From the NCBI GenBank assembly GCA_947499255.1, contig CANMNF010000001.1:1240001-1304000 (forward strand): a stretch of DNA of 64,000 bases, written 5' to 3'. The notes under the pieces are model-generated. The model made no database searches, was not told the DNA's origin, and saw only the letters and a program-made list of their open reading frames with translations. Positions 30,940-59,555 of this stretch are shown here, in pieces. Positions within the stretch are counted from its first letter, which is position 1. The number at the start of each line of letters is the position of its first letter. The stretch is from an uncultured Sphingomonadaceae bacterium (GTDB lineage Bacteria > Pseudomonadota > Alphaproteobacteria > Sphingomonadales > Sphingomonadaceae). A program made the translations under genes and the position numbers.

Positions 30940-31971
30940 TTAGCGCTGCACGCGGCCTGAGCCGTCGCCTGACATCAGCTTTTCAACTTCGGGCACTGTC
31001 ACACGGTTGAAATCGCCCGAAATCGTATGCTTGAGCGCGGAAGCTGCCACGGCAAACTCCAGGCTTTGCTGGCGATCTTCATAAGCGTTGAGGCCATAGA
31101 TCAGCGCCGAGGCAAAGCTATCGCCGCCGCCAACGCGGTCCACGATATCGGTCAGCTCATACTTTTTGGAAAGCTTGAACCCGCCTTCGCGTGTGCGCAG
31201 GCATGCAGACCAATTGTTGCGATCCGCGCTCAGGCTTTCCCGCAGGGTAATCGCGATGGTGTGCATATCGGGATAGATATCGAGCACTTTTTGGCCGAGC
31301 GCTTCGTATTTGGCCGTGTCCAGCTCACCTGATTCCACATCAACATCAACCGTGATATCGAGCGACTTCTGGCAATCTTCTTCATTGGCAATGCCAACAT
31401 CGACATATTTGACAAGTTCACGCATCACTTCAGGAGCGGTTTTGCCGTATTTCCACAGCTTGCCACGGAAGTTGAAATCGCAAGAAACCGTAACGCCAGC
31501 AGCCTTGGCTGCTTTCACGCAATCCATCGAAAGCTCTGCTGCCGATTCGCTCAACGCAGGGGTGATGCCGGTGATGTGCAGCCATTTTGCGCCTTTAAAA
31601 ATGGTCGGCCAGTCAAATTCGTCCGCGCTGGCATTACAGATTGAAGAATTTGCGCGGTCATACACAACTTTGGAAGGGCGTTGGTTAGAACCGGTTTCCA
31701 GGAAATAGATGCCAACGCGATCACCTGAACGGCTGACATGCGCGGTATCGACGCCAAATTTGCGCAGTTCCATAATCGCGTTTTCGCCGATATCATTATC
31801 GGGAAGCGCAGAAACGAAGCCGGAATTGAGGCCATAATTGGACAGCGCGACCGCCACATTGGCTTCGCCGCCGCCAAAGGTTGCCTCAAAACTTTGTGAT
31901 TGGAAGAAACGTTCGTGTCCGGTGGTTTTGAGGCGAAGCATGATTTCGCCAAAGGAAAGAAATTCAGCCAT
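30940..31971 (-). CDS. kdgK: 2-keto-3-deoxygluconate kinase (PfkB family)
   Basis: Phosphorylates KDG to KDPG, feeding the lower Entner-Doudoroff pathway. The 343-residue protein has the N-terminal PfkB pattern (GEIMLRL...[16 protein letters not shown]) and the C-terminal PfkB signature with the catalytic Asp ([18 protein letters not shown]). It is ten bases downstream of the KDPG aldolase gene on the same strand, with its own AGGAT site. KDG would come from mannonate via ManD, encoded 25 kb away in the window. Assignment to KDG rather than another sugar acid rests on this neighbour and general resemblance. Confidence 0.88.
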
Positions 31972-31980
31972 TAATAGATC

Positions 31981-32628
31981 CTATTTGCGGGTGTCGTCGG
32001 CAATCGCGAGAGCTTCACGTGCCAGTTTGGTGATTGCGTCGAAATCGCCTGCGGCAATTGCGTCTGCAGGTGTAAGCCAGCTGCCGCCGCAAGCCAGAAC
32101 ATGCGGCAAAGCAAGATATTCGCCCAGATTTGCGGTTGAAATGCCGCCAGTGGGCATAAAGCGCATTTCGCGGAACACCGCGCCCAGCGCTTTCAACATC
32201 GGCACACCTCCGGCCAGGCTGGCGGGGAAGAATTTTACCTCGCGCAGACCCATCGCATAAGCGCGCTGCACTTCGCCAGCGGTCATGGTGCCGGGATAGA
32301 TCGGCACCGAATTGCTCAAGCAATGCTCAACGATATTGTCCACAAGGCCGGGGCACACCACGAACTGCGCGCCGCTATCCAAAACAGATTTCGCCTGATC
32401 GAGCGTTAACACCGTGCCAGCGCCGACGATTACATCGTCAACCTGTTCGATGATCGCTTCCATGCACTGCTGTGCCGCATCCGAACGCAGCACCACTTCG
32501 ATGACCGAGAGGCCACCATCACGCAGCGCTTTGGCTGTTTCTACGGCAACAGCGGGGTCATTCCCGCCAACCAGCGGAACAACAGGGGCTGCGCCCAGTT
32601 TTGCCGCCAGATCGTTGTCAATCGTCAT
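31981..32628 (-). CDS. eda: 2-keto-3-deoxy-6-phosphogluconate aldolase
   Basis: Cleaves KDPG to pyruvate and glyceraldehyde 3-phosphate. This 215-residue class I aldolase has its Schiff-base Lys132 in LREVKFFPAS, the proton-relay Glu44 and Arg48 in VIEVVLRS, and the phosphate loop PTGGIS. It lies just ahead of kdgK, together a compact KDG-to-triose unit. The 94-base gap upstream, after the GMC gene, may hold a second promoter; I see no operator there. Confidence 0.93.
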   Translation of the reverse strand: MTIDNDLAAKLGAAPVVPLVGGNDPAVAVETAKALRDGGLSVIEVVLRSDAAQQCMEAIIEQVDDVIVGAGTVLTLDQAKSVLDSGAQFVVCPGLVDNIVEHCLSNSVPIYPGTMTAGEVQRAYAMGLREVKFFPASLAGGVPMLKALGAVFREMRFMPTGGISTANLGEYLALPHVLACGGSWLTPADAIAAGDFDAITKLAREALAIADDTRK

Positions 32629-32722
32629 TTCAATAGGTCCTCACGTGTTGAAGAATCGCGGTTGCAATGAAGTCTAACGCGCTTTGACGCAAGCCCTCGT
32701 TGCATGGCCCGGATGCAAACGC

Positions 32723-34417
32723 TCAGATCGCGCCTTCGGCCAGCATATCGGCACAATTGTTGGCAGCGCGCGCTGTCATCGCCATAAAGCTGATTGATGG
32801 GTTTTGACACCCTCCCGACGGGAACGCCGAACCATCGGTGATAAACACGTTTTTCGCAGCGTGGAGCTGGCTGAATTTGTTCGTCACCGCCTTGGTGGGA
32901 TCATCCCCCATCACCGCGCCGCCCATTTCGTGAATGCGATCACCAGGCTCGTTGATCCGGCCGGTGCGCTCGATATTGACAGCGCCTGCGGCCTCCAGAA
33001 TGGCTACTGCATCGTCGCTCATCTGCTCACCCATTTTATGTTCATTGTCTGAAACGCTCACATCAAAATGCAATAGCGGCAGACCCCATTTGTCTTTGCG
33101 GGTTGGATTTAGAGTGACGCGGTTATCGGCGCGCGGCAGCATTTCGCCAAAACCGCCCAGATCGATGGTCCACGAGCCCGGTTCACGCGCAGCATGTTTG
33201 TTCTGTGCACCAAAACCTGGCTGATTGGCGAGACGATCAGGACCAAGGCGCCGCGAATTGCTTTGGAAAGCACCGCCGCGAAGATACCCATCTCCTGGCT
33301 CCGACAAGTTTCGGAAACGCGGAATGTAAAAGCCCGTTGGCCTGCGCCCTTCGTAATAACGATCATCTACACCAAGGATCGTACCGCGCGCGCCTTTGCC
33401 AACGATATGATCGGTAATGTATCGGCCCACGCGATCATGCCCATTGCCCAACCCATTTGGCATTGCTTCAGATTGTGAATTCAGCAGCACGTGGACGCTG
33501 CCAAAGGCAGATGCACACAGGAAAACCGCTTTGGCGCGGTATTCTGCGCCGGCGCGTGTTTCTGAATGGACGGTGCGCACACCTTCGGCTTTTTGCGTCT
33601 CAGCGTTATAGATGATTTCAGACACAACCGTGTCGCTGATCACGGTGAGATTGCCAGTGGCCTGTGCTGCGGGCAATGTCGCGCTGACGCTTGAGAAAAA
33701 TGCGCCAAATGTGCACCCGCGATTGCAGTGAAGCCGCTTTTGACAAACCCCGCGACCAAGCGCGGTTTGCTCTTCAGTGGGCTGTGTCAAATGCGCGCAA
33801 CGACCATCAATCAAACGCCGTCCAGGAAAGTTTTCTTCCAGCTTTTCTTTGAGCACTTTTTCTGCGGCAGTCAGGCCAAAGCTCTTTTGAAAAATACCAT
33901 CGGGCACATTGGGAATGCCAGCTTGTGAACCAGCAATCCCGGCAAAGCGATCAACATGATCGTACCACGGCTTCATATCGTCATAGCCAATGGGCCAGGG
34001 AACGCCGTGGCCGTCCTTCGCATTGGCCTCAAAATCCTCTGGCCCCATGCGATAGGTCTGACGCCACCATAGCAGCGAACGCCCACCCAGATTATGTGCG
34101 CGAACCCATACAAATTTGGTGCCATCCTCAACGGTGTAAGGGGCATCTTCGAAACGGGTGAACCATTTCAAATTATCCGGGGTGATCGCATAATCGACAG
34201 TCGCCCATGTTGGATGATCCATCAATTCCTCGGGAATGAGGCCGTAATTCTCACGCTCCCAGGGTTGCAGCATATCGGTATATTCCGGGCCGCCATGTTC
34301 GATGTGACGGCCACGTTCGATCACCAGCACTTTGAGCCCGCGCTCGCACAACTCTTTCGCTGCCCAGCCACCACTCATGCCTGATCCCACAACGATTACA
34401 TCAAAATCTTCTGCCAT
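32723..34417 (-). CDS. FAD-dependent GMC sugar dehydrogenase, catalytic subunit with Fe-S motif
   Basis: A 564-residue GMC oxidoreductase, N-terminal FAD motif VIVVGSGMSGGWAAKELC, GGRSLLWW, and a C-terminal active site with His in HEMGGAVMG and Asn in CQNPSISFMAMT. Cys225, Cys231 and Cys235 are spaced C-x5-C-x3-C, the arrangement of the 3Fe-4S ligands of bacterial FAD-glucose dehydrogenase as I recall it. It has no signal peptide, but the next upstream gene encodes the Tat-signal small subunit that normally co-exports this type. Relatives include glucoside 3-dehydrogenases, which make 3-keto-glycosides; sorbitol, gluconate and fructose dehydrogenases are alternatives. No cytochrome c subunit is encoded nearby. 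Confidence 0.85.
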   Translation of the reverse strand: MAEDFDVIVVGSGMSGGWAAKELCERGLKVLVIERGRHIEHGGPEYTDMLQPWERENYGLIPEELMDHPTWATVDYAITPDNLKWFTRFEDAPYTVEDGTKFVWVRAHNLGGRSLLWWRQTYRMGPEDFEANAKDGHGVPWPIGYDDMKPWYDHVDRFAGIAGSQAGIPNVPDGIFQKSFGLTAAEKVLKEKLEENFPGRRLIDGRCAHLTQPTEEQTALGRGVCQKRLHCNRGCTFGAFFSSVSATLPAAQATGNLTVISDTVVSEIIYNAETQKAEGVRTVHSETRAGAEYRAKAVFLCASAFGSVHVLLNSQSEAMPNGLGNGHDRVGRYITDHIVGKGARGTILGVDDRYYEGRRPTGFYIPRFRNLSEPGDGYLRGGAFQSNSRRLGPDRLANQPGFGAQNKHAAREPGSWTIDLGGFGEMLPRADNRVTLNPTRKDKWGLPLLHFDVSVSDNEHKMGEQMSDDAVAILEAAGAVNIERTGRINEPGDRIHEMGGAVMGDDPTKAVTNKFSQLHAAKNVFITDGSAFPSGGCQNPSISFMAMTARAANNCADMLAEGAI

Positions 34418-34447
34418 GTCAGTGTACCTGCTTGTAAGGTCGTAGGA

Positions 34448-35068
34448 TCAAAGTGCCCAGCTACGGCCAACTTCGGAAAGCGGGGCATCAATGCGGGCAT
34501 TGGGGCCGGGATTTAGCTCATATTGCAGTTCCTGCGTGCACCCCACTTCGGAGTGATAATAACCGCGATAGATCACGCGTTTAAGCCCGCGATACCCGGC
34601 TTTCGCGGCAGCATCAGCATCGGTTTTGTCGTAGGCGTCTTTGCCAAAGCACGCAGCTTCATAGGCTTCGAGCGTGCTGACCTGCGCGCCATCGCCCAGC
34701 TCAATAAATTCCGCGCCATGCGCTTTGCTGGCAACATTATCGAGCATGTCGAGCGCAGCTTCGAAACTTTTGCGCGTTTCCGGCTTGGCCCAGCTTGCCA
34801 GCAGGCCATCGATATATTGCGGGACACCGGCCGTAATTGCCCCAGGCGTATCAGTAGTAGGCAAGATCATTTCGCTTAATTGTGCAAGTGTCTGGAAGCG
34901 CCAAGCGGTTAGATTTACAGGGGTTGCATCCACGATCATGGGCGGAATTTTTGACGAACATCCCGCCAGCCCGCCGGGCAGCGCCAACACGCCGACGATC
35001 GCAACGCTGGAACGCGAGAGGAAAGACCGCCGCGTCGAAGCGAAGCGATTTTTGATAGGCGCGGTCAT
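34448..35068 (-). CDS. Gluconate 2-dehydrogenase subunit 3 family protein, Tat lipoprotein
   Basis: A 206-residue small subunit of FAD-dependent sugar dehydrogenases. The N-terminus carries a twin-arginine motif (STRRSFLSRS, Arg13-Arg14), a hydrophobic stretch and a lipobox LAGC (Cys37), so it should leave by the Tat route and become lipidated. The gluconate_2-dh3 domain follows (ITAGVPQYIDGLL, AYEAACFGK, VIYRGYYHSEVGCTQELQYE). By analogy with FAD-glucose dehydrogenase it carries the folded catalytic subunit, encoded next, through Tat. The ATG at 35068 is chosen over 35080 because GGAGAGAG precedes it. Confidence 0.88.
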   Translation of the reverse strand: MTAPIKNRFASTRRSFLSRSSVAIVGVLALPGGLAGCSSKIPPMIVDATPVNLTAWRFQTLAQLSEMILPTTDTPGAITAGVPQYIDGLLASWAKPETRKSFEAALDMLDNVASKAHGAEFIELGDGAQVSTLEAYEAACFGKDAYDKTDADAAAKAGYRGLKRVIYRGYYHSEVGCTQELQYELNPGPNARIDAPLSEVGRSWAL

Positions 35069-35098
35069 ATCTCTCTCCATCCGATCCAGTTCAACACG

Positions 35099-36034
35099 TC
35101 ACAATGCCGCAGCCAGCGCACGCACATTTTCTAAAGCGCGCGCTTCTTCGCCGCGCACTGGGAAACATTCCAGGCCTATTGGGCCATCATAGCCCAGCGC
35201 CATCGCCTCTTTCAAAATATAGGCGTAATTCATCTCACCTGTACCAGGTTCACGCCGGTCCGGGGAATCGGCAATTTGCAACAGACCGATATGATCAAAG
35301 CCTTCGCGCAAATGATGTACCACATTGCCTTCATGCCTTTGCATATGGAACAAATCCCAGTTGATCTGCACATTTGGACTGTCCACCGCGCGGCAAATTT
35401 TCACGGCATCTTCAGCACCATAAATGAAAAATCCGGGATGATTGAACCGATTGAACGGCTCAATACACAAAGTCACATTGGCAGCTTCGAATAGCGGCGC
35501 GATGGCAGCGATATGATCCTGATACGCGGCCAGCATTTCCCATTTGGCCATACCATCAACGCTTTGATGCCCCACAATCGTGGCATAGCGCGCGCCAAGG
35601 GTGGTGATGTTATCCAAGGATGCGATTACGCTTTCACGTACTTGCGCAGGTGTTGCTGCGGCCATTTGTGCAGGCACATCAACGGTACAATGGATGATCT
35701 GGATTGCAGCTTCGCGGCTTTGTTGGCGCAGTAAAGTGGGATTACGTTCACCTTCACCCAAATTCCACATTTCAGCGGTGGTAAAACCAGCGCGGGCGGC
35801 CAAATCAATGCGTTTGTCAAGCGGCGCAGGCCGCCACCATGTTTCCAGATTGAGAGTAAAGCGAGAAAGACCAGCGCCTCTCGATTGCGTCGCATGGCCA
35901 TCCATTGCAGCGGATACCGATTGAGGCGCCCCCGCACACGCGGCAACCCCAACAGCCGAGGCAGCTGTTGCCAGTGCCGTGCGGCGCGACACACCGTTTG
36001 ACGTTGCGACGCGACTGTCACCCTGATTTTTCAA
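35099..36034 (-). CDS. Tat-exported TIM-barrel sugar isomerase/epimerase-like protein
   Basis: A 311-residue protein with a Tat motif (VSRRTALATAAS, Arg17-Arg18) and a possible lipobox VAAC (Cys33), then an AP-endonuclease-2-type TIM barrel. Metal ligands of this fold are visible: Glu in LCIEPFNRF, Asp/His in INWDLFHMQRHEG, and Glu in IGLECFPV. It resembles hydroxypyruvate isomerases, but a periplasmic location argues against that substrate. Within a 3-keto-glycoside context such proteins may act as lyases or epimerases on oxidised sugars. Overlaps the upstream gene by four bases. Confidence 0.82.
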   Translation of the reverse strand: MKNQGDSRVATSNGVSRRTALATAASAVGVAACAGAPQSVSAAMDGHATQSRGAGLSRFTLNLETWWRPAPLDKRIDLAARAGFTTAEMWNLGEGERNPTLLRQQSREAAIQIIHCTVDVPAQMAAATPAQVRESVIASLDNITTLGARYATIVGHQSVDGMAKWEMLAAYQDHIAAIAPLFEAANVTLCIEPFNRFNHPGFFIYGAEDAVKICRAVDSPNVQINWDLFHMQRHEGNVVHHLREGFDHIGLLQIADSPDRREPGTGEMNYAYILKEAMALGYDGPIGLECFPVRGEEARALENVRALAAAL

Positions 36035-36933
36035 GATATTTCCATACCCACAAGATGATCGCTTGCCGCTTTCAAACGCGCTTTATCAACCGTCTTCAAC
36101 CGGTCGCTTTCGACAAAGAAATGTTCCAGCCCGGCTTTTTGCGATTGCTTCAAGATCGCTGCGAAATTAATCGAACCTTCGCCCGGCAAAGTCATCAGGC
36201 CATCTTCTGCCACATCCTTGATATGGCACAGGGTGATGCGGCCAGCATGTTTGTCAATCAGCGCATCGACATCTTGCCCAGCGGCCACAGCCCAATAAAA
36301 ATCAAGCTCAAATTTCACCATCTCGGGATCGCTTTGCGCAGCAAGGATATCCAGACCCGTCAGTTCGCCATCGACAGCATCAAATTCAAAATCATGATTG
36401 TGATAGGCAAAGGCGATGCCTTCATCCGCCAACCGCGCGGCGGCATCGCTGCACAAATCAGCAACACCTTTCCATGCGTCCACAGAGCCGCGCATTTCTT
36501 CAGAAACCCACGGCAGCACAACATGCTGTACGCCCACCGTATTGGCGATGGAAATTACACGGTCCATCTGATCGGTGAGTTGATCGGGCATACAATGCAT
36601 ACCGGGCGCGGCGAGGCCTGTCTGGTCCAGAAAGGCGCGCAGTTCGACCGGGTCCTTTTCAAAATAGCCGCCTCCACCAAACTCTACTTCGGAAAATCCG
36701 GTATCAGCGACAGCTTGCAAAGTGCCCAGCGCATCGGTCTCAAAACTTTCGCGCACCGTGAAAAGTTGGATGCCAAGCGTAGTCAGTTTTTCGGCAAAGG
36801 GTGCTTTTGGCTCAGCCTCTTCGCCTGCTGCGCAGCCTGTCATCGTGGCAAGCAAGGTGGCACCGGTGACCTGGCCAAATTGTCGGCGGTTCCAATGCGG
36901 CGCAGCGATAATATTGTTCGCCGGTCCGCTCAT
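36031..36933 (-). CDS. Tat-exported TIM-barrel sugar isomerase/epimerase-like lipoprotein
   Basis: A 300-residue protein with a twin-arginine motif (WNRRQFGQV, Arg16-Arg17) and a possible lipobox MTGC (Cys34), followed by the same TIM-barrel fold as its neighbour but only distantly similar. Likely ligands: His/Asn/His/Asp in YHNHDFEF, Asp in FELDFYWAVAAG, His in LCHIKDV, and Glu in FFVESDR. The YHNHDFEF and HIKD motifs are typical of the sugar phosphate isomerase/epimerase family linked to 3-keto-sugar metabolism. Four-base overlaps with both neighbours show tight coupling. Confidence 0.82.
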   Translation of the reverse strand: MSGPANNIIAAPHWNRRQFGQVTGATLLATMTGCAAGEEAEPKAPFAEKLTTLGIQLFTVRESFETDALGTLQAVADTGFSEVEFGGGGYFEKDPVELRAFLDQTGLAAPGMHCMPDQLTDQMDRVISIANTVGVQHVVLPWVSEEMRGSVDAWKGVADLCSDAAARLADEGIAFAYHNHDFEFDAVDGELTGLDILAAQSDPEMVKFELDFYWAVAAGQDVDALIDKHAGRITLCHIKDVAEDGLMTLPGEGSINFAAILKQSQKAGLEHFFVESDRLKTVDKARLKAASDHLVGMEIS

Positions 36934-38180
36934 ATTGCCGCTCTTGATGGTTGTGCTGACAGAGGAGCTTTTTCCTGAGGCCGTTTAAGACGCAAAGCGA
37001 GCAAGATACCAAAGGCCACGATCAAAATGGCCGGGAGCACCGTAAGGCGTTCCAACACTGCTTGCCCGGCCACAAGGTCCGCCGCCGGCCCGGCTGCACC
37101 GCCAGCCAGCGCCGCATTCTTCGCATCATCAAGCCAGCCACCGATAATCGGCATCCAGATGCTGACGCCAAACATGCCCGCACCACCAATCAGGGAAAGG
37201 CCCAAAGCGCCGGTTCGGGGCTGATATTCGCCAATCACGCCTATCATGGTTGGCCAAAAGTAGCAAACGCCCAGTGCGAAAACCACGGCTGCAGCATAAG
37301 CGCTCGCCCCATCGGCACGGCTTAGCAGCATAAAGCCGATTGTGGTGACAACAGCCGACGCAAACAGCACGCCAACAGGATTAAGCCGGTGCACAATCGG
37401 CCCGGCGAAATACCGCCCAACGGCCATCACGCCTGTCACCAATGCCAGGATCAACATGGGCGATGCGCCAGTGCCGGCAAGGATCTGATTGATCCATTGG
37501 CCAGTGCCAAGCTCTGTCGTTGCAGTCAGCGTCATCAAAATGCACAAGCCAATAAAAAGTGGCGAGAACAGCGCCTTGATATTTTCAGCCGTTGAACTGA
37601 GGCCAGAACGTGTTTCTGGAAAAACCGTGGTGAAGATCATCACCCCATAAATCGCCAGTGGCAAAAGCATCGTCGCCAGCAAAAGCTGCCAGCCCAGCTG
37701 CTCACCAAAATAGAATGCAATCAGCGATCCGATCACGATGCCGCCGGGGAACCAAACGTGAAATTTGTTTAACATGGTGGTTTTGTTGTCAGGGTACATG
37801 TCCGCAATCAACGGGTTGCATGCCGCCTCAACCGATCCATTGGCAAACCCGATACAAAAGGTGGAAATAATCAGCAGCCAAAACCCATCGGCATAAATCG
37901 TCAGCACAATACCCAGCAAATGTCCGATAAAGGCGATAATCATGAGGTTTTTTGCCCCCACCTGATTATACAGCAGACCCCCGATCATCATTGCCACCGG
38001 AAAGCCAAGAAAGGCCATGGCGTTGATCCAGCCCAGTTCCCGGCTGCTAAGGCTAAAGCCGTCACCAAGCTCGCCCAATATCCCTGCACGAAGGGCAAAG
38101 GTCATCGACGTGACCGTGAGCGCGACACACGACATAATAAACAGACGTGATGGATTGATGCTTGATACAGCTGTGGCCAT
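36930..38180 (-). CDS. MFS sugar transporter
   Basis: A 416-residue major facilitator protein with 12 predicted helices, opening SRLFIMSCVALTVTSMTFALRAGILGELG. It is of the fucose/glucose-galactose permease-like branch common in glycoside and sugar-acid loci. First gene of the minus-strand run that continues through both TIM-barrel genes, the dehydrogenase pair, eda and kdgK. Likely imports a product of periplasmic oxidation and cleavage; the substrate is inferred only from context. Confidence 0.86.
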   Translation of the reverse strand: MATAVSSINPSRLFIMSCVALTVTSMTFALRAGILGELGDGFSLSSRELGWINAMAFLGFPVAMMIGGLLYNQVGAKNLMIIAFIGHLLGIVLTIYADGFWLLIISTFCIGFANGSVEAACNPLIADMYPDNKTTMLNKFHVWFPGGIVIGSLIAFYFGEQLGWQLLLATMLLPLAIYGVMIFTTVFPETRSGLSSTAENIKALFSPLFIGLCILMTLTATTELGTGQWINQILAGTGASPMLILALVTGVMAVGRYFAGPIVHRLNPVGVLFASAVVTTIGFMLLSRADGASAYAAAVVFALGVCYFWPTMIGVIGEYQPRTGALGLSLIGGAGMFGVSIWMPIIGGWLDDAKNAALAGGAAGPAADLVAGQAVLERLTVLPAILIVAFGILLALRLKRPQEKAPLSAQPSRAAI

Positions 38181-51434: not shown

Positions 51435-51540
51435 TGCAGCTTGGTATAGCTCCTCTTGGTATCTTGGGTCACACCGCGAGACTGTTTTTGCCCAACACGC
51501 GAACACTGCCCAATTTGTGACGCGGGAAAGCAGGCCTTGG

Positions 51541-51583
51541 ATGCAAAGATGATTACGATGCAAGGATGATTGCCATGCAAAGC
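51541..51583 (+). repeat. 17-base direct repeat, two and a half copies, spanning a start codon
   Basis: ATGCAAAGATGATTACG (51541), ATGCAAGGATGATTGCC (51558) and a partial ATGCAAAGC (51575). Each copy supplies an ATG; the second provides the AAGGA ribosome site for the third, which is the real start of the GMC gene. Confidence 0.8.
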
Positions 51584-53179
51584 TTCGATTTCATCATTGT
51601 TGGCGGCGGATCGGCGGGCTGCGTTCTGGCCAATCGTCTGTCGGCAAATCCAGCAAACAGCGTTCTGTTGATCGAGGCAGGTGGGCGCGATCTGTCACCG
51701 TTTATCAAAGTGCCAGCAGCGATCATCAAGCTGATCGGCAATCCGGCCTATGACTGGGGATTTTCGGTTGAGCCAGATGCCAGCCGCAAGGGGCGGCAGG
51801 ATTACTGGCCAGCGGGCAAAGTTCTGGGTGGCAGCAGCTCCATCAATGGTATGCTCTATGTCCGCGGCGCACCGCAGGATTACGATAGCTGGGCAGAGGC
51901 TGGAAATACCGGTTGGAGTTATGCCAAATGCGAACCCTATTTTCGCAAGCTTGAAAATTGCACTTTTGATACAGGGCAAGATCGCGGGTCGCTTGGCCCG
52001 CAAGCGATCAGCCATTTGCGCACGCGCCATGCCCTTGCAACGCCCTTTGTTGAGGCCGCGCAATCAGCAGGCCTGGCAAAGAACTCCGATTACAATTCCG
52101 GCTCGCAAGAGGGGATCGATGCGCCGCAATTGACGCAGCTTCGCGGGCGCCGTTTTAGTGCCGCCGACGGCTATCTAAAGCCAGCCAGGAACAGGCAGAA
52201 CCTCACAATCATCACAGGTGCTGAAGCAAAACACCTGCTGTTCGAAGGGCAGCGCGCCATTGGGGTGTGCTACCATCGCAATGGCCAAGACCACGAGGTT
52301 TTCGCCCGTCGAGAGGTCATCTTGTCCGCTGGCGCCTTGCAATCGCCCAAGCTGCTCATGCTATCAGGAATTGGGCGCGGCGATGATCTCAAAGCGCTTG
52401 GTATAAAGGTGCGTTACAACAATCCCCATGTCGGGCAAAACCTGCTGGAGCATCCCAATGCGCAGCTTGGCTTCACTGTAGACCAGCGCACATTCAACCA
52501 AGAGATCAACAGCTTGCGCGTTGCGTGGCATGGCCTGCGATGGCTGTTGCAACGCAAAGGGCCTGCCACCAGCCCTTATCCCCATGCCCTTGGGTTTTTC
52601 CGCTCAACGCCTGACAAGCCGTCGCCTGACATCCAGTTCATGTTTGGCCCCTTTGGTTTTGAATTGACGCCTCAAGGCACGGTTCCCTCGCGCGATCCCA
52701 TGGTGACATTGGTGGTGGGCTTGTCCTATTCGCGCAGCACAGGAAGCCTCACTTTGCGCTCCAAGGACCATCGCGAAAAGCCGCGGATCGCGATTGAGAT
52801 GCTGTCAGATCAACGCGACATTGCAGATTTGACAGCGGGCTGCCGCTTTATCCGCGAGGTCATGGCAAATCCTCCTATAGCCAATCATGTGCAGGCTGAA
52901 ATGACGCCGGGCCACGATGTGCAGACTGACGATGAATGGGAAGACTATCTGCGCCGGACAGTGGACCCAACATATCACCCCATCAGCACATGCCGCATGG
53001 CTGTAAAAGCGTCTAAAGGCGTGGTCGATCCGCAGCTGCGTGTGCATGGGATCGGAGGCCTTCGCGTTGTCGATGCCAGCATTTTTCCAAGCCACATTAG
53101 CGGCAACATCAATGGCCCGGTCATGATGGTCGCTGAAAAGGCCGCCGACCTCATTCTTGCGGACCACGCTCTCGCCTGA
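51575..53179 (+). CDS. GMC oxidoreductase, choline/alcohol dehydrogenase type
   Basis: A 534-residue flavoenzyme of the BetA/alcohol dehydrogenase branch: FAD motif FIIVGGGSAGCVLANRLS, GMC signature 1 (GGSSSINGMLYVRGAPQDYD), signature 2 (SAGALQSPKLLMLSGIG), catalytic His in DPTYHPISTCRM and Asn in SGNINGPVMM. Cytosolic, no export signal, no Fe-S cysteines, so clearly distinct from the GMC protein at 32723. The ATG at 51575 is favoured by the spaced AAGGA. The substrate, a primary alcohol or polyol, is unknown. Confidence 0.9.
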   Translation: MQSFDFIIVGGGSAGCVLANRLSANPANSVLLIEAGGRDLSPFIKVPAAIIKLIGNPAYDWGFSVEPDASRKGRQDYWPAGKVLGGSSSINGMLYVRGAPQDYDSWAEAGNTGWSYAKCEPYFRKLENCTFDTGQDRGSLGPQAISHLRTRHALATPFVEAAQSAGLAKNSDYNSGSQEGIDAPQLTQLRGRRFSAADGYLKPARNRQNLTIITGAEAKHLLFEGQRAIGVCYHRNGQDHEVFARREVILSAGALQSPKLLMLSGIGRGDDLKALGIKVRYNNPHVGQNLLEHPNAQLGFTVDQRTFNQEINSLRVAWHGLRWLLQRKGPATSPYPHALGFFRSTPDKPSPDIQFMFGPFGFELTPQGTVPSRDPMVTLVVGLSYSRSTGSLTLRSKDHREKPRIAIEMLSDQRDIADLTAGCRFIREVMANPPIANHVQAEMTPGHDVQTDDEWEDYLRRTVDPTYHPISTCRMAVKASKGVVDPQLRVHGIGGLRVVDASIFPSHISGNINGPVMMVAEKAADLILADHALA

Positions 53180-53191
53180 CCACCGCTGCAA

Positions 53192-53206
53192 ATTGGTTTG
53201 ACCAAT
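53192..53206. promoter_or_regulatory. FadR/GntR-type operator before the Gfo/Idh-DUF1080 operon
   Basis: ATTGGT-TTG-ACCAAT is a perfect inverted repeat, 68 bases before the ATG at 53275 and just after the GMC stop. It matches the TTGGT-N3-ACCAA consensus of FadR-subfamily regulators and agrees at 12 of 15 positions with the site between manD and the FadR-type gene. Confidence 0.75.
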
Positions 53207-53274: not shown

Positions 53275-54600
53275 ATGGCGACACGGCGCGATATCATCAA
53301 AGGCGCAGCAGCGGCTGGCTCGGTTGCCAGTATTTCTACCCTCTCGCCTGCTGCTTACAGCCGTGTCCTGGGCGCGAATGACCGGGTTCGCGTGGCCGCA
53401 ATGGGCGTGCGTTCGCGCGGTCTTACATTGATGGAAGCCTTTGCCGATGCCGGCGCGGATGTCAGCCATGCTTTCGATGTCGATGCGCGCGTGGAGGCCG
53501 CGGTAAACGAAAAATTTGCTAAAATGGGGGAAGCCCCGCCCGCCTTTGGCAAAGATTTTCGCGTGGCGCTGGATGATCCCACCGTTGATATCATCATCGT
53601 TGCAACGCCCGATCACTGGCACACCCCCGCCAGCCTTATGGCTCTCTCTGCGGGCAAGCATGTCTATGTTGAAAAACCTTGCGGGCATAATGGCGCAGAA
53701 GGTGAAATGATCGCAGCGGCGCAGGCCAAATCCGGCTTGCATGTGCAAATGGGCAATCAACAACGCTCCTCCGCGCCATCGCAGGAATTGGTGCAGCGCA
53801 TCCACGACGGTGAGCTGGGCGAAATTTATCATGTGTACACATGGTACGCGAACAGGCGCGGCACCATCGGCCCATCTGCCTCTGCGGCAATCCCCGATTG
53901 GCTCGATTGGGAGCTATGGCAGGGACCCGCTCCGCGTCGCGATTATGAAGACCCCTGGGTGCATTATGATTGGCATTGGAATTGGCATTGGGGCACCGGG
54001 GAAACCTGCAACAACGCAGCGCACGAGCTCGATATCGCACGCTGGATTATTGATGCACAAAACCCCGAAAAGGTCAGCACGAGAGCGAGCCGCCGGTTCT
54101 TCACCGATGATGCCTGGCAGATGTATGATACGATGCACGCCGAATTCCTCTATCCCGGCGATGTGTCGATCGTTTGGGATGGTCATAGCTGTAACCAGGT
54201 AAACCAGTTTGGACGTGGGCGCGGCGCTTTGGCCTTTGGCACAAAAGGTTCGGCAATTGTGGATCGCGAAGGGTATGAAATCTTTGATCGCGGTGGCAAA
54301 CTTATCGATGAAAGCAAAGGCGGCGGCGGGAACACGAACACAGCGGACACACGTGGCGGCGGTAACCTGACCACGCTGCATTGCCGCAATCTGGTCGAGG
54401 TGGTGCAAGGCCGCACCAGCGCCCTCGCCTCTCCGATTGATGAAGGCGCAACGAGTACGTTGATGTGCCATCTGGCCAACATCTCCTATCGCACCGGTGC
54501 CGACATTACAGTTGATCCTGAAACCGGCAGAGTGGCCGAGAAATTCGCGCAACCTTATTGGGGCCGCGAATATGAACCGGGCTGGATGCCGACCATCTGA
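53275..54600 (+). CDS. Tat-exported Gfo/Idh/MocA family oxidoreductase
   Basis: A 441-residue oxidoreductase with an N-terminal Tat signal (MATRRDIIKGAAAAGSVAS) and a Rossmann domain starting VRVAAMGVRSRG. It has the family Lys in VYVEKPCGHN, QMGNQQRS, and the active-site GETCNNAAHELDIARWII. Exported members, like glucose-fructose oxidoreductase, carry a tightly bound nicotinamide cofactor through Tat. It is followed 37 bases later by the secreted DUF1080 protein, a pairing typical of 3-keto-sugar loci. Confidence 0.88.
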   Translation: MATRRDIIKGAAAAGSVASISTLSPAAYSRVLGANDRVRVAAMGVRSRGLTLMEAFADAGADVSHAFDVDARVEAAVNEKFAKMGEAPPAFGKDFRVALDDPTVDIIIVATPDHWHTPASLMALSAGKHVYVEKPCGHNGAEGEMIAAAQAKSGLHVQMGNQQRSSAPSQELVQRIHDGELGEIYHVYTWYANRRGTIGPSASAAIPDWLDWELWQGPAPRRDYEDPWVHYDWHWNWHWGTGETCNNAAHELDIARWIIDAQNPEKVSTRASRRFFTDDAWQMYDTMHAEFLYPGDVSIVWDGHSCNQVNQFGRGRGALAFGTKGSAIVDREGYEIFDRGGKLIDESKGGGGNTNTADTRGGGNLTTLHCRNLVEVVQGRTSALASPIDEGATSTLMCHLANISYRTGADITVDPETGRVAEKFAQPYWGREYEPGWMPTI

Positions 54601-54637
54601 TGCAGAACACACGTTGCACAATAGACAAGGCTTGATC

Positions 54638-56077
54638 ATGATTGCCAAAACCCTTTTCCCCGCCGCCGCAGCTAGCATCTTGCTTACCCTTACCCCGGCC
54701 CACGCGCATGAGCATGAGCACGAGCATGAGGGCGATTGGGTGGAATTGTTTGACGGCGAAACGCTTGATGGATGGTCAACCAAAGGCGGTGCCGCGCCGT
54801 TTGAAGTGGTCGATGGCGTAATAGTGGGAACAGCGGTTCCCAATACTCCCAACACCTTTCTTACGACCGACACAATCTATGACGATTTCATTTTTGAGAT
54901 TGATGTGAAGGTCGAAGGCGGATTGAATTCTGGCGTTATGTTCCGTGCGGATGCCCGGCCCGATTATCGCAATGGCCGGGTGCATGGCTTTCAAGCTGAG
55001 CTGGACAATTCCCCGCGCCGTTGGAGCGGCGGCATTTTTGAAGAACAGATGCGTGGCTGGCTTTATCCGCTGACCCGCAATCCATCCTGCCAAAACGCCT
55101 TCAAACGCGGAGAATGGAACTCCTATCGGATCGAAGCGCTGGGCGATACGGTACAAATTGTGCTTAATGATACGCCATGTTCGCGCCTGCTTGATCCAGC
55201 GGGGCGGACCGAAGGGTTTTTCGGCCTGCAAGTGCATTCGGTTGGCAATAACCCGGCAATGGGTGCGTCCGGAGATAAGGCAAACTTCCGCAATATGCGC
55301 ATCAAGACGGATATCGACGCGGATGATTTGACGGTGTTTCCGGCGAATATTGTCGAGATCAACAGCCGCCCTAACACCTTATCAAAACGCGAAGTTTTGC
55401 ATGGTTGGCAATTGCTGTGGGATGGTGAGACAACGCAAGGCTGGCGCAGCGCGCGCGGCGAAAACTTCCCTGAACGCGGGTGGCGCATTGCCGATGGAAT
55501 GTTGATGGTCGAAGCTTCTGATGGCGGGGAATCCACCAATGGCGGTGACATCATCACCACTGACGAATATTCCGATTTCGAACTGCAATTGCAGTTCCGC
55601 ATCACGCCCGGCGCGAATAGCGGGATCAAATATTTCGTCGATCCAGACCTTTTGAAAGGCGAAGGTTCGGCCATCGGGTTAGAGTTTCAGATACTTGATG
55701 ATGAGCTGCATCCCGATGCGAATATGGGCGTTGCAGGCAAGCGCAAAACCGGCTCCTTATATGATCTGATCCGCGCTGATAATTTGAGCGAGATCGGCAT
55801 GCGCCGGGCCAAGCGAAATCTGCCAGCGGGCCAATGGAACCACGCGCGCATCGTTTCGCGCGGGGGCCATATCACGCATTATCTCAACCATGTGAAAGTG
55901 GTTGAATATGATCGCTTTTCACAAACATTCGCGGCGCTGGTCGAGTATTCAAAATATGCCGATTGGGAGAATTTTGGGCGCTGGCCGACCGGACCGATCC
56001 TGTTGCAGGATCACGGTGACGAAGTGGCGTTCCGCAGCATCAAGATCCGCGAATTGACCAACGCCGAAGCTGAATAA
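54638..56077 (+). CDS. Secreted protein with two DUF1080 (3-keto-disaccharide hydrolase) domains
   Basis: A 479-residue protein with signal peptide ending TPAHA, directly followed by HEHEHEHE, a run of alternating His and Glu that could bind metal. Domain 1 (about 35-225: WVELFDGETLDGW, NSGVMFRADAR, FKRGEWNSYRIEALG) and domain 2 (about 250-470: WQLLWDGETTQGW, NSGIKYFVD, LPAGQWNHARIVSRGGHITHYLN) are both DUF1080/PF06439 concanavalin-like folds, a family now associated with hydrolysis of 3-keto-glycosides. The ATG at 54638 places the signal at the N-terminus; the open frame further upstream overlaps the preceding gene. Convergent with manD. Confidence 0.88.
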   Translation: MIAKTLFPAAAASILLTLTPAHAHEHEHEHEGDWVELFDGETLDGWSTKGGAAPFEVVDGVIVGTAVPNTPNTFLTTDTIYDDFIFEIDVKVEGGLNSGVMFRADARPDYRNGRVHGFQAELDNSPRRWSGGIFEEQMRGWLYPLTRNPSCQNAFKRGEWNSYRIEALGDTVQIVLNDTPCSRLLDPAGRTEGFFGLQVHSVGNNPAMGASGDKANFRNMRIKTDIDADDLTVFPANIVEINSRPNTLSKREVLHGWQLLWDGETTQGWRSARGENFPERGWRIADGMLMVEASDGGESTNGGDIITTDEYSDFELQLQFRITPGANSGIKYFVDPDLLKGEGSAIGLEFQILDDELHPDANMGVAGKRKTGSLYDLIRADNLSEIGMRRAKRNLPAGQWNHARIVSRGGHITHYLNHVKVVEYDRFSQTFAALVEYSKYADWENFGRWPTGPILLQDHGDEVAFRSIKIRELTNAEAE

Positions 56078-56089
56078 TCACAGCGCCCA

Positions 56090-57298
56090 TCACCAGTTCC
56101 ACATCGTCCCGTCTTCCAAACGGGCGATGGGGAGCTGCTTGGGCGAATACGGATATTTCGCGGCCAGTTGTTCATCGATATCTACGCCAATGCCGGGCGT
56201 ATCGTCCAGATGCAGATAGCCATCATCGAAGTGATAGGAATGCGGAAACACTGCATCCGTTTCTGGCGTGTGGCGCATATATTCCTGAATGCCGAAATTG
56301 GGCACCCACATATCGAAATTCAGCGCAGCACCCATGCAAGCTGGCGATAGGTCAGTCGCACCATGAAAGCCCGTGCGCACCTGATACAAAGCAGCCAAGC
56401 CGGCGATCTGGCGCAGATGCGTGATCCCGCCAGCATGAACGATTGTGGCGCGGATATAATCGATCAATTGCTCTGATATCAGTTGCCGACAATCGTGGAT
56501 CGAGTTGAAGATTTCCCCGATGGCCAGCGGCGTAACAGTATGCTGGCGCACCAGTCGCAACGCTTCCTGATTTTCAGCAGGCGTACAATCTTCCATCCAG
56601 AAAAGCCGATACGGCTCTAGGCTTTTGCCCAATCGGCCCGCTTCTATTGGCGTGAGGCGGTGATGTACATCGTGCAGCAGCTCCACTCCCATGCCATATT
56701 CGTCGCGGATGCGGGCAAACAGCTTGGGCGCAAAATCGAGATAGGCCGAGGTGTTCCACAAGGTTTCCGTTGGCAGCGCATCATCGGCAGGCTCGTAATA
56801 AAGATCGCCCCGGCCCACGCCATAAGCGCCTTTGACACCCGGAATGCCGCTTTGCGCGCGGATCGCTTTATAGCCCAGGTCGATATAGCGCCCGACCGCA
56901 TCCGCAGTCTCTTCGATATCGGCACCATTGGCGTGGCCATAGACGAGCACTTTGTCGCGCGATGCACCGCCCAAAAGTTGGTAAACCGGCATCCCGGCTG
57001 CCTTGCCCTTGATATCCCACAAGGCGACATCGACGGCGGAAATCGCGCTCATCGTGATGGGGCCGCGCCGCCAATAGGCTCCGCGATAAAGCAACTGCCA
57101 GATATCTTCGATCCGGCTCGCATCGCGCCCTATCAAAAGCGGGACGACATGATCTTCAAGATAAGCGACAACAGCCTTTTCACGGCCATTCAAAGTCGCA
57201 TCGCCAATACCATAGACACCTTGATCTGTTTCGATCTTGAGGGTGACGAAATTGCGCCCCGGGCAGGTCACAATTACCCGTGCTGCGGTGATTTTCAT
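56090..57298 (-). CDS. manD: D-mannonate dehydratase, enolase superfamily
   Basis: Dehydrates D-mannonate to 2-keto-3-deoxygluconate. The 402-residue enzyme has every ManD catalytic residue at the expected number: Arg147, Tyr159, metal ligands Asp210, Glu236 and Glu262, and His212 (in LLHDVHHR), matching the Novosphingobium enzyme from memory. This points to the high-efficiency branch rather than RspA-like proteins of uncertain role. The ATG at 57298, not 57337, is chosen because AGGAGG lies four bases upstream. It diverges from the FadR-type regulator across an operator. Confidence 0.94.
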
Positions 57299-57342
57299 GG
57301 GGCCTCCTGTTGATCCCTTTGCCCTTGGCTCAACCATGCTGT

Positions 57343-57379
57343 ATTGGTTAGCGAAGTTTGTCTAACTGGTCAGACCAAT
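57343..57379. promoter_or_regulatory. FadR/GntR-type operator between manD and its regulator
   Basis: ACTGGT-CAG-ACCAAT at 57365-57379 has a core perfect palindrome TGGTC-A-GACCA. A half site ATTGGT lies at 57343-57348, 22 bases away, about two helical turns. The site is 16 bases before the regulator ATG and suits control of both directions. Confidence 0.75.
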
Positions 57380-57395
57380 TGTCACAAGGAAGTAT

Positions 57396-58142
57396 ATGAA
57401 AGGCCATCGCCTTTATGAACGCGTCGCGCGCGAATTGGCGCAAGTGATAGCCTCCAGGCGCTATGCCTTGGGGGATCGCATACCGTCAGAACGGCTTTTG
57501 GCACAGCAGTTTGCAGTCAGCCGGCCCACCATTCGCGAAGCCATGATCGCGCTGGAAGTGGATGGCATGGTCGAAGTAGTCACCGGATCGGGCGTCTATG
57601 TCCGCGCGCATTCACCCAAAACCTCTGTGCCTGCCACCGGTGATATCGGCCCGTTTGAATTGTTCGAAGCGCGCGCCGCGATTGAAGGTGAGGCGGCTGC
57701 GATGGCCGCGCGCAATATTGACGAAGCTGATCTTGCGTTGCTGGAACAGCTGATCGGTGAAATGGATGCGGCAAACAAGCGCACTATTCCCGAAGCCGAA
57801 GATGTCGATCGCCAGTTTCACCTCACGATCGCGCGCACCAGCAACAATTCCGCGGTAGAGATGTGTGTCACCATGCTGTGGGATGCACGTGCAGCCTCGT
57901 TGCAAAATGTGAAGTTTATGGAAAAGGTTCATGCCGAAGGGATTACGCCGCGTATTGATGAGCATTGGGCAATTCTGACAGCTTTGAAATCGGGCGATGC
58001 CGAAGCAAGCCGCAAGGCGATGCGCGCACATTTGCGGCGCGTGGCCGATATGGTGTTTGACGCGACAGAGGCCGAAGCTGTGGAACGGGTAAAGGCGCAA
58101 CTAGCAGGCGAGCGCCGCCGCTTTGCTGCATTGGGACAATAA
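57396..58142 (+). CDS. FadR-subfamily GntR transcriptional regulator (hexuronate type)
   Basis: A 248-residue regulator: N-terminal GntR winged helix (IPSERLLAQQFAVSRPTIREAMIALEVDGMVEVVTGSGVYV) and a C-terminal FCD effector domain with metal-binding Asp/His (DVDRQFHLTIARTSNN, DEHWAILTALKSGD, ..AHLRR). The layout beside manD and uxaC resembles ExuR/UxuR, whose ligands are hexuronates or fructuronate. uxaC starts four bases after its stop, so regulator and enzyme are co-transcribed. Confidence 0.92.
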   Translation: MKGHRLYERVARELAQVIASRRYALGDRIPSERLLAQQFAVSRPTIREAMIALEVDGMVEVVTGSGVYVRAHSPKTSVPATGDIGPFELFEARAAIEGEAAAMAARNIDEADLALLEQLIGEMDAANKRTIPEAEDVDRQFHLTIARTSNNSAVEMCVTMLWDARAASLQNVKFMEKVHAEGITPRIDEHWAILTALKSGDAEASRKAMRAHLRRVADMVFDATEAEAVERVKAQLAGERRRFAALGQ

Positions 58143-58145
58143 TTC

Positions 58146-59555
58146 ATGACACGATTGCTCAACGACGATTTTCTGCTGCCCCCAGATCCGGGCACGCGCG
58201 CCATCGCGCGGCGCCTGTACGATACCATCGCTGGCCTGCCGATTGTAAGCCCGCATGGTCATACGGCCCCGGCCTGGTTCGCAGATAATACACCGTTTAG
58301 CGACCCCGCCGAGCTTTTGATCACGCCCGATCACTATGTCTTTCGGATGCTGTATTCTGCCGGAGTGCGATTGGAGGATCTGGGCATTGCTCCCCAAGAT
58401 GGCAGCGATTTTGAGCGTGATCCGCGCGCAATTTGGCACACCTTTGCCAAGCATTATCACCTGTTCGCTGGCACGCCTTCGCGAATATGGCACGATTGGG
58501 TCTATGATCGCATTTTCGGCCTGACCAAGCCTTTGTCGAGCGATACCGCCGATCACTATTACGATGTTATTGCGGAGAAATTGGCCAGCCCCGAATTCGC
58601 TCCGCGCGCGCTGATGGATGCGTTCAAGATTGAAACGATTGCCACGACCGAGCAACCGCTCGATCCGCTGATCCATCATGCCAAGCTGATCAAGGATGGA
58701 TGGGGCAAAAGGGTGGTAACAACATTCCGTCCCGATAATGTGACGGACCCCGATTATGAAGGGTTTGCTGACAATCTCGCTGCTTTGTCGGGCATTACGG
58801 GCATCGCGGTGGAGAGCTATGACGGCTACCTTAAAGCGCTGCGAGACCGGCGCGTATTCTTTAAACAGCATGGCGCGACGGCGAGCGATCACAGTTACCC
58901 CACAGCCCAAACCGCTGATCTAAGCGATGAGGATGCCGCCGCGCTTTATCTGCGCATCCGAAGCGGAGGCGCAGCTCCGCAGGACAGGGCGCAGTTCCGC
59001 GCGCAAATGCTGACAGAGATGGCGCGGATGAGCGTGGAAGATGGCCTTGTGATGCAAGTGCATTGCGGGCCGCTGCGCAATCATAACGCGCCTTTATTTG
59101 AACGGTTTGGCCGCGATAAGGGCGCCGATATTCCTGACCGCATGGAATACACCCACGCCTTGCAGCCGCTCCTCAACAGGTTCGGCAATGATCCGCGCTT
59201 CTCGATGATCATCTTCACGCTGGATGAAAGCGTTTATGCACGAGAGCTGGCACCGCTGGCAGGGCATTATCCAGCGCTCAAGCTAGGCCCGCCCTGGTGG
59301 TTTCATGATAGCCCCGAAGGCATGCGCCGCTTCCGCGCGCTAACAACGGAGACGGCAGGGTTTTACAACACCGTCGGCTTTAATGACGATACGCGCGCTT
59401 TCCTGTCTATCCCCGCCCGGCACGATGTGGCGCGCAGAATGGATAGCGGTTTTCTGGCCGAAATGGTCGCAGATCATCGGCTGCGCGAAGATGAAGCGAT
59501 GCAGATCGCGCAGGATTTGACCTATAATCTGGTGAAACAGGCATATCGCTTTTGA
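58146..59555 (+). CDS. uxaC: Glucuronate/uronate isomerase
   Basis: Interconverts D-glucuronate and D-fructuronate, and galacturonate and tagaturonate. The 469-residue amidohydrolase-superfamily protein has an N-terminal metal motif (IVSPHGHTAPAWFADN), PDHYVFRMLYSAG, the TTEQPLDPLIHH segment, MQVHCGPLRNHN and LGPPWWFHDSPEGMRRF. Length equals E. coli UxaC. The reductase that would turn fructuronate into mannonate (UxuB) is not in the window. Convergent with modC four bases away. Confidence 0.95.
   Translation: MTRLLNDDFLLPPDPGTRAIARRLYDTIAGLPIVSPHGHTAPAWFADNTPFSDPAELLITPDHYVFRMLYSAGVRLEDLGIAPQDGSDFERDPRAIWHTFAKHYHLFAGTPSRIWHDWVYDRIFGLTKPLSSDTADHYYDVIAEKLASPEFAPRALMDAFKIETIATTEQPLDPLIHHAKLIKDGWGKRVVTTFRPDNVTDPDYEGFADNLAALSGITGIAVESYDGYLKALRDRRVFFKQHGATASDHSYPTAQTADLSDEDAAALYLRIRSGGAAPQDRAQFRAQMLTEMARMSVEDGLVMQVHCGPLRNHNAPLFERFGRDKGADIPDRMEYTHALQPLLNRFGNDPRFSMIIFTLDESVYARELAPLAGHYPALKLGPPWWFHDSPEGMRRFRALTTETAGFYNTVGFNDDTRAFLSIPARHDVARRMDSGFLAEMVADHRLREDEAMQIAQDLTYNLVKQAYRF

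Follow-up and report, generated by a model that had tools for sequence, protein, structure and literature searches.

Two candidate glycosidase-free sugar-release units, one apparently connected with glucuronate, in a 64-kb stretch of a Sphingomonadaceae genome

Do the sugar-oxidising and uronate-degrading genes that lie close together in the genome of an uncultured Sphingomonadaceae bacterium (2.96 Mb in 6 contigs) serve one catabolic route or two? The question concerns positions 30940-59555 of a 64,000-nucleotide stretch of this genome (C1:1240001-1304000, hereafter the window). The original prediction had described them as one locus, in which glycosides are oxidised at C3 by a GMC-family dehydrogenase and cleaved in the periplasm, with uronic acid products entering the Entner-Doudoroff pathway. 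Our analysis favours, with moderate confidence, two independent glycosidase-free sugar-release units flanking unrelated genes: unit A (30940-40583), which resembles the 3-keto-glucoside pathway of Agrobacterium and, judging by its homologues, should yield a neutral hexose from neutral glycosides, and unit C (53275-59555), a glucuronide candidate, apparently directed at glucuronic acid. Two oxidative deglycosylation routes that resembled one are in this way separated, each with a testable substrate class.

Every gene named in the original prediction was present (Pfam, NCBIfam and inspection of N-termini), and the families that it put forward for profile searches, namely PF06439 (two stretches), PF13618, PF01261 and, for GMC, PF00732 with PF05199, all gave matches. 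Kinship to enzymes of the glycosidase-independent 3-keto route was likewise borne out by relatives of PDB entries 8ro4, 8bvk, 8tcd, 8tdf and 4jqt, as was export by the twin-arginine translocation (Tat) system, the motif of which was found in the PF13618 partner subunit, in the TIM barrel proteins TIM300 and TIM311, and in the Gfo/Idh protein of unit C. C3 oxidation and periplasmic cleavage are plausible on these sequence grounds. The notion of one locus holds as far as the presence of the named genes goes, and the genes at 40634-53179, which had been passed over, were judged unrelated. No glycoside hydrolase family other than PF06439 was matched among the 30 window proteins scanned with Pfam (E ≤ 0.001), as had been claimed, which lends the pathway weak support. 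Gene content, homology, TIM300 active-site residues, export signals, palindrome copies and linkage were computed directly; from them we infer every reaction, substrate, transport step and GntR binding event discussed below.

Linkage of the two gene sets in relatives

None of the 97 neighbourhoods fetched from relatives contained a GMC anchor and the glucuronate isomerase UxaC together. In the 70 GMC loci the PF13618 subunit was found 56 times, TIM300 31 times, the hydratase (TIM354) and the reductase (cytosolic Gfo/Idh) 25 times each, the MFS transporter 13 times and TIM311 12 times; the Tat-exported Gfo/Idh was found in 4, Eda in 3, a match of the double-DUF1080 query in 2, ManD in 1, and KdgK and UxaC in 0. 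Conversely, the 27 UxaC loci carried ManD (7), KdgK (6), GntR (5), and TIM300, double DUF1080 and Tat Gfo/Idh once each, and at the thresholds used none of them had the PF13618 subunit, hydratase, reductase, TIM311 or MFS. The neighbourhoods, of up to ~20 kb, were searched with the window proteins; a GMC locus was one with a GMC match of at least 400 bits, the UxaC set comprised all those outside the own genome, and the own-genome loci (L054, L055 and L142) were excluded from the counts. Per-gene score thresholds were chosen by hand, and weaker matches exist below them, e.g., to the TonB receptor in L053 and L121 and to the reductase in L119. The 70 GMC loci are not independent: L036 and L067, the same over 4,000 bases tested, are one contig counted twice, L037-L040 represent other named genomes, and some loci are truncated by contig ends, while some GMC places (e.g., G073:C128, G089:C10 and G101:C198) lie outside the set. 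Of the order's 147 genomes, with the own one counted in, 62 had GMC homologues (E ≤ 1e-30) and 28 had UxaC; a scan of genome contigs with the GMC protein gave 6 loci.

These counts do not favour the single route from glycoside to uronate, which we consider improbable. In such a route the GMC pair would oxidise, the double-DUF1080 protein would cleave, and the uronic acids would pass through UxaC, ManD, KdgK and Eda into the Entner-Doudoroff pathway. All the genes do lie within 28 kb; the GMC unit houses KdgK and the genome's one detected Eda, and unit C houses ManD and UxaC. About 12.5 kb of other genes separate the units, however, and unit A contains no palindrome copy with at most one mismatch (see below). 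A single GMC-to-uronate pathway is unsupported: unit A possesses an eliminase, a hydratase and a reductase of its own, enzymes that lead to glucose in the pathway as published (PMC10628242).

The company of DUF1080 genes in relatives weighs against a clean separation. A GMC relative (31-46% identity) was found in 8 of 12 neighbourhoods around DUF1080 genes of other genomes, nearly all of these genes being single-domain (L043-L046 and L050-L053 out of L042-L053; six at 31-34% identity, below the 400-bit limit for GMC anchors), and in Sphingomonas parapaucimobilis a set similar to unit A, with a cytochrome c, has a DUF1080 gene inside it. LacABC-type dehydrogenases are also known near single-DUF1080 genes, and a periplasmic dehydrogenase acting with DUF1080 was proposed for Caulobacter (PMC9007349). 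With single-DUF1080 genes so placed, a division of the units by enzyme type loses sharpness. In relatives, the single-domain DUF1080 protein goes with GMC dehydrogenases, and the double-domain protein of the window goes with Gfo/Idh. Despite the GMC relatives in these loci, the idea of one 28-kb operon system was dropped on the neighbourhood counts.

Unit A and the proposed release of neutral hexose

On the minus strand, unit A is transcribed in the order MFS, TIM300, TIM311, PF13618 subunit, GMC, Eda and PfkB kinase; TIM354 and then Gfo/Idh diverge on the plus strand (Table 1). In PDB the GMC protein aligns best, over nearly its full length, with fructose dehydrogenase and glucose dehydrogenase large subunits, and its CX5CX3C cysteine triplet, which aligns with the fructose dehydrogenase large subunit, is taken by us to be an iron-sulfur site. 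The PF13618 subunit, the only copy found in the genome, gave no match in PDB and probably serves the GMC enzyme in export and anchoring, as its N terminus suggests. TIM354 matched 8ro4, named 2-hydroxy-3-keto-glucal hydratase, over residues 1-350 (1.2e-177) and is by its sequence predicted to be such a hydratase. TIM311 is a candidate 3-keto-sugar isomerase or epimerase, having a weaker PDB match to the 3-keto-D-glucoside 4-epimerase 6wn6 (5.4e-07).

The eliminase assignment of TIM300 was examined at the level of active-site residues. In AtOGE of Agrobacterium tumefaciens, the metal ligands are His132, Asp163, His189 and Glu233, the catalytic residue is His134, and His132, His66, Glu39 and Glu161 are listed as residues of the other subunit (PMC10628242). 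PDB 8bvk was taken as AtOGE because its length and all eight residue numbers fit, and in the alignment of TIM300 to it His132, His134, Glu161, Asp163, His189, Glu233, His66 and Glu39 are all present. Six of the eight are invariant in 40 GMC-linked TIM300 homologues from other loci, with His134 kept in 39/40 and Glu161 in 34/40. A loose Tat twin-arginine pattern, searched in a stretch that may contain untranslated bases, was frequent in TIM300 homologues (38/40) and PF13618 subunits (47/57) but rare in hydratases (1/25) and reductases (3/25); for TIM311 homologues the figure was 5/13, many of their alignments beginning inside the protein. All three Tat-motif proteins of unit A in the window additionally have a lipobox-like Cys following the motif, a feature uncommon in homologues (TIM300 2/40, TIM311 0/13, PF13618 subunit 4/57).

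In unit A-type loci, oxidation and elimination thus appear from the signals to take place outside, and hydration and reduction inside. Outside elimination together with inside hydration implies import of the glycal, for which the MFS protein is the natural candidate. In the proposed sequence, the GMC enzyme, exported to the periplasm by its Tat partner, would there oxidise neutral glycosides at C3; TIM300, itself exported by Tat, would eliminate the aglycone, leaving 2-hydroxy-3-keto-glucal; the MFS protein would import this glycal; and the cytosolic hydratase and Gfo/Idh reductase would convert it to 3-keto-glucose and then glucose. Eliminative cleavage is suggested to be periplasmic in this taxonomic order, in which case the reactive glycal would need import. 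In L087 and L094 (genomes of family label f8) a single cluster contains multiple copies of GMC and TIM300 in alternation, an arrangement suggestive of duplication of the pair to serve different glycosides.

The GlycDH/AtOGE/AtHYD/reductase operon of A. tumefaciens is similar in comprising a GMC-type dehydrogenase with a TAT-pathway partner, an Mn-type TIM-barrel beta-eliminase, a hydratase and a Gfo reductase (PMC10628242). Unlike it, unit A has a Tat signal on the eliminase, for which AtOGE (259 amino acids) would have no room according to the alignment, and it additionally contains the MFS gene, a second Tat-exported TIM barrel, and Eda and KdgK downstream. The chemistry of unit A is of a known kind; what would be new are variants, namely a periplasmic eliminase conserved in the order and, in unit C, a Bacteroidota-like pair apparently recruited into a glucuronate regulon. 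The unit A chemistry is also known from levoglucosan degraders (PMC10066097). The hydratase is closer to rhodobacterial and rhizobial plasmid copies (81-83% identity, the best listed) than to those of its own order (59-71% among full-length matches, one 21% match being set aside), which points to transfer.

The electron acceptor and the terminal sugar-acid genes fit this picture of unit A less well. No member of a cytochrome c family was detected by Pfam among the nine unit A proteins, the rest of the genome not being searched, and an electron-taking partner is accordingly not seen. In Caulobacter LacABC the third component, beside the GMC and the PF13618-type subunit, is presumably a cytochrome c. 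Unit A differs from LacABC in that neither a cytochrome c nor a DUF1080 gene was found among its proteins, so that the three-component arrangement is incomplete there. What the two share is a periplasmic dehydrogenase that has a transporter, a reductase and two epimerase-like proteins in its vicinity (PMC9007349). The position of Eda and KdgK beside unit A is not conserved, as the GMC locus counts given above for both genes indicate. The earlier naming of the kinase as KdgK derives from its match to PF00294, and all its NCBIfam scores are under the curated cut-offs: 487/700 bits for the Eda/kinase fusion, 229/440 and 111/400 for two models of 2-keto-3-deoxygluconate/2-keto-3-deoxygalactonate (KDG/KDGal) kinases, and 52/400 for KdgK. 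The fusion being the best model fits the adjoining Eda and kinase genes, and Eda, the sole PF01081 protein found in the genome, should serve any 2-keto-3-deoxy-6-phosphogluconate (KDPG) made by the cell.

With Eda and KdgK next in line, unit A might instead serve oxidation of free sugars or aldonates, the GMC enzyme acting at C1 or C2 and the resulting KDG being used by both proteins. PF13618 is named after subunit 3 of gluconate 2-dehydrogenase, and the PDB entries best matched by the GMC protein are fructose and glucose dehydrogenases. The 2-hydroxy-3-keto-glucal hydratase and the complete AtOGE-type eliminase in the unit nevertheless fit C3 oxidation, and KdgK is absent from the GMC neighbourhoods counted, which makes the aldonate alternative highly improbable.

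Unit C, its proposed operator and the apparent glucuronate connection

The classical glucuronate regulon comprises UxaC, UxuB, ManD or UxuA, KdgK and Eda, together with ExuR. Unit C is similar in that its UxaC and ManD pass curated cut-offs and its ExuR-like GntR has a conserved upstream site; it differs in having an exported oxidoreductase with a DUF1080 protein, and in that the UxuB-like gene is elsewhere in the genome. The claim of a hexuronate link survives for unit C (shared proposed operator and locus L042, described below) but not for the GMC unit, and attaches to a different oxidoreductase and to the double DUF1080 protein. The latter contains two PF06439 domains (160.2 and 138.9 bits vs a gathering score of 26.8) and matched PDB 4jqt over 441 residues (3.5e-140). 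Its open reading frame (ORF) begins inside the Gfo/Idh gene, and the start at 54638 would give a plain signal of the general secretory (Sec) type. Each DUF1080 domain keeps a His (LQDHG and LQVHS); names for the putative active-site residues of this family were not found in PMC9765024. If the Bacteroides thetaiotaomicron 3-keto-O-glycoside lyase, whose H275N variant is without hydration activity (PMC13273386), is BT2157 (290 residues; PMC11003636), its His275 would fall about at these His residues.

Tentatively, unit C may form a complete alphaproteobacterial pathway for glucuronides that works without a glycosidase. The Tat-exported Gfo/Idh would oxidise the glucuronide at C3 with a bound nicotinamide cofactor; the double DUF1080 protein would cleave it by lyase and hydratase steps, which its two domains would divide within one secreted protein; reduction of the 3-keto-uronate, perhaps by the same Gfo/Idh, would free glucuronate, no electron acceptor being needed; and glucuronate would pass through UxaC, UxuB encoded elsewhere, ManD, KdgK and Eda. 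The ExuR-like GntR would drive the pair, UxaC and ManD through ATTGGTNNNACCAAT. A single mannitol-dehydrogenase-family (UxuB-like) gene was found in the genome, on contig C2 outside the window, and is the likely candidate for UxuB. Its neighbours are a Gfo/Idh gene on one side and, on the other, a sulfatase-like ORF followed by an SGL-family gene (L054, C2:995000-1011592, positions 8404-13074), and none of three palindrome cores tried was found in this locus. No glucuronidase was recognised in the window in the Pfam scan of its 30 proteins; GH67 was considered as a glucuronidase and dropped, its core domain having no match in the genome, where GH115 and other glucuronidases were not searched.

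With at most one mismatch, ATTGGTNNNACCAAT occurs in the 64 kb only at the two sites of Table 1. At up to two mismatches there are 4 window sites vs 2.5 expected by shuffling, 25 of 100 shuffles reaching 4; the loose pattern being at chance level, its placement and not its count carries meaning. One of these looser copies, with two mismatches, is inside the hydratase gene of unit A at 38752. Within 300 bases upstream of UxaC, ManD or GntR, a site with up to two mismatches was found in 4 of the 5 UxaC loci with GntR (0.2 expected) and in 0 of the 22 without it (0.4 expected), where the palindrome was derived from this window before being counted in relatives, the 300-base zone was fixed after a first look, and the expected rate was taken from the background of the GMC loci. 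In the own genome the palindrome core with at most one mismatch occurs 143 times per strand vs 75 for the reversed control; the perfect core was found at five places, and the full 15 bases are perfect at two (53192-53206 and C1:107807). Other regulators probably use similar sites. As it stands, the proposed regulator-operator pair predicts glucuronide control of a double-DUF1080 protein.

Outside the window, the pair and UxaC meet again in L042 (G101:C245; G101 has family label f8 and genus label g42, the window genome f1), where a sulfatase, UxaC, a UxuB-like gene, double DUF1080 (51%) and Tat Gfo/Idh (51%, cut by the contig end) follow on one strand. The sulfatase (4197-5645) directly precedes UxaC, hinting at sulfated uronides as substrate. 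The pair is otherwise rare in the sampled relatives. A DUF1080 search of the order gave hits in 30 of 147 genomes, both domains aligning only in the own genome and G101; at E ≤ 1e-60 the double DUF1080 was found at class level in 2 genomes out of 385 and at phylum level in 1 out of 398, the own genome counted in and G101 not being among them, and the Tat Gfo/Idh in 1 of 385 in the class, the own genome only. Two-domain relatives are carried on plasmid records of Bacteroides finegoldii and Persicobacter psychrovividus (49-50% identity) and of Persicobacter sp. JZB09 (45%). In the first two the double DUF1080 gene adjoins Gfo/Idh genes, accompanied by GH115 and GH88 in B. finegoldii and by GH92 and a sulfatase-like gene in P. 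psychrovividus; in JZB09 the double DUF1080 and Gfo/Idh matches are ~120 bases apart. This distribution, like the hydratase identities above, suggests that both the hydratase and the double DUF1080/Gfo/Idh pair were acquired by horizontal transfer.

Among the closest known systems, BT2156-BT2160 of B. thetaiotaomicron likewise combines a Gfo/Idh glycoside 3-dehydrogenase relative with a DUF1080 protein. In unit C, by contrast, there is a single Gfo/Idh, the DUF1080 protein has two domains as in 4jqt, a TIM barrel is lacking, and the ExuR-like regulator provides the tie to UxaC and ManD. The broad pathway of BT2156-BT2160 is reportedly the subject of a 2024 Nature paper. For 4jqt itself the structure has been solved, and no function of this double-DUF1080 layout was found in the literature searched; nor was published work on a glucuronate-linked double-DUF1080 unit, in a search largely outside subscription papers. 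According to PMC11300592, BT2158 is a glycoside 3-dehydrogenase of the periplasm, and deletions of BT2157 and BT2158 caused no growth defect on raffinose-family sugars (PMC11501099).

A number of observations weigh against the glucuronide assignment. The Tat Gfo/Idh scored 132.5 bits vs the 750-bit cut-off of the glycoside 3-dehydrogenase model NF058561 (BT2158 family), and it matches 8tdi, named glucuronide-3-dehydrogenase, more weakly (1.2e-07) than 8tdf. L042 is the only other locus joining the pair to UxaC, and it is without a site in the upstream zone, its sole copy with up to two mismatches falling within the ORF that precedes the sulfatase gene, ~500 bases ahead of the latter. The site at C1:107807 carries another perfect 15-base palindrome. 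The Bacteroidota double-DUF1080 loci also carry ordinary glycosidases, Persicobacter showing GH92 and not uronate genes, and of the ten best Gfo/Idh matches six more come from plasmid records in which no DUF1080 gene is annotated within 8 kb.

Unit C could instead be a plain glucuronate regulon beside which the Tat Gfo/Idh and double DUF1080 genes, acting on a non-uronate glycoside, landed by chance after horizontal transfer. The Bacteroidota-like character of the pair, its near absence from sampled relatives, its GH92 neighbour in Persicobacter and the commonness of the loose palindrome, which other regulators may use, are in keeping with this. A perfect palindrome directly before the pair, a second locus (L042) with UxaC and a UxuB-like gene in line, and GH115 with GH88 near the pair in B. 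finegoldii argue against it, and we regard chance neighbourhood as rather unlikely.

Coordinates, intervening genes and other loci

Coordinates of all features are collected in Table 1. Homologues of the unit B genes are nearly lacking in the 97 anchor loci: at the thresholds used, DUF4886, DASS, DadA, amidohydrolase, M14 and TonB gave 0, LysR gave 4 (3/70 GMC and 1/27 UxaC loci) and the choline-dehydrogenase-like GMC gave 1. The latter gene (51566-53179) was rejected as the C3 oxidase of unit C, the palindrome lying after it and its homologue being found in 1/70 GMC and 0/27 UxaC loci.

Table 1. Features of the window discussed in the text (window coordinates)
Feature	Position	Strand	Evidence or remark
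PfkB sugar kinase, probable KdgK	30940-31971	-	PF00294; best NCBIfam model Eda/kinase fusion, kinase half, below cut-off
KDPG aldolase Eda	31981-32628	-	PF01081; TIGR01182 cut-off passed
GMC FAD dehydrogenase, putative glucoside 3-dehydrogenase type	32723-34417	-	PF00732, PF05199; CX5CX3C
PF13618 partner subunit, Tat motif and lipobox	34448-35080	-	PF13618; N terminus
TIM311, hydroxypyruvate-isomerase-like TIM barrel, Tat motif and lipobox	35099-36034	-	PF01261; PDB 3ngf 1e-21
TIM300, putative AtOGE-type 3-keto-glycoside beta-eliminase, Tat motif and lipobox	36031-36933	-	PDB 8tcd, 8tcs, 8tct, 8bvk
MFS transporter, proposed importer of cleaved sugar	36930-38180	-	PF07690
TIM354, predicted cytosolic 2-hydroxy-3-keto-glucal hydratase, no signal peptide seen	38365-39429	+	PDB 8ro4
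Cytosolic Gfo/Idh, probable 3-keto-glucose reductase	39426-40583	+	PF01408, PF22725; PDB 3v5n 4.5e-170
Unit B, judged unrelated: DUF4886, DASS transporter, DadA-like oxidase, amidohydrolase, M14 peptidase, TonB receptor, LysR, choline-dehydrogenase-like GMC	40634-53179
Perfect 15-base palindrome ATTGGTTTGACCAAT, proposed GntR operator	53192-53206		95-base gap before Tat Gfo/Idh gene
Tat-exported Gfo/Idh, BT2158-type glycoside 3-dehydrogenase relative	53275-54600	+	PDB 8tdf, 8tdh closest
Secreted double DUF1080 (PF06439 x2), proposed 3-keto-glycoside lyase/hydratase	ORF 54497-56077, likely start 54638	+	PF06439; PDB 4jqt
D-mannonate dehydratase ManD, start probably ~57298	56090-57337	-	NF043051 732.1 vs cut-off 550, passes
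Second palindrome copy ACTGGTCAGACCAAT, one mismatch, proposed operator	57365-57379		ManD/GntR gap
ExuR-like GntR/FCD regulator	57396-58142	+	PF00392, PF07729; nearest model ExuR 141/396 bits
Glucuronate isomerase UxaC	58146-59555	+	PF02614; NF002794 563.7 vs cut-off 387, passes

Within unit B, the DASS transporter, DadA-like oxidase, amidohydrolase, M14 peptidase and TonB receptor (41598-50360) look like a peptide or D-amino-acid unit. A second DUF1080 locus of the own genome (L055, C3:52000-71999, positions 9218-16487) adjoins an AbgT transporter and runs through a TIM barrel, an MR_MLE enzyme, a GntR-like gene, a 2-hydroxyacid dehydrogenase, a 909-amino-acid protein weakly matching cytochrome c, and a single DUF1080 protein. 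Outside the three units, a plus-strand ORF without a Pfam match and an ORF overlapping it on the opposite strand occupy 24767-27256, the two long frames measuring 810 and 793 amino acids.

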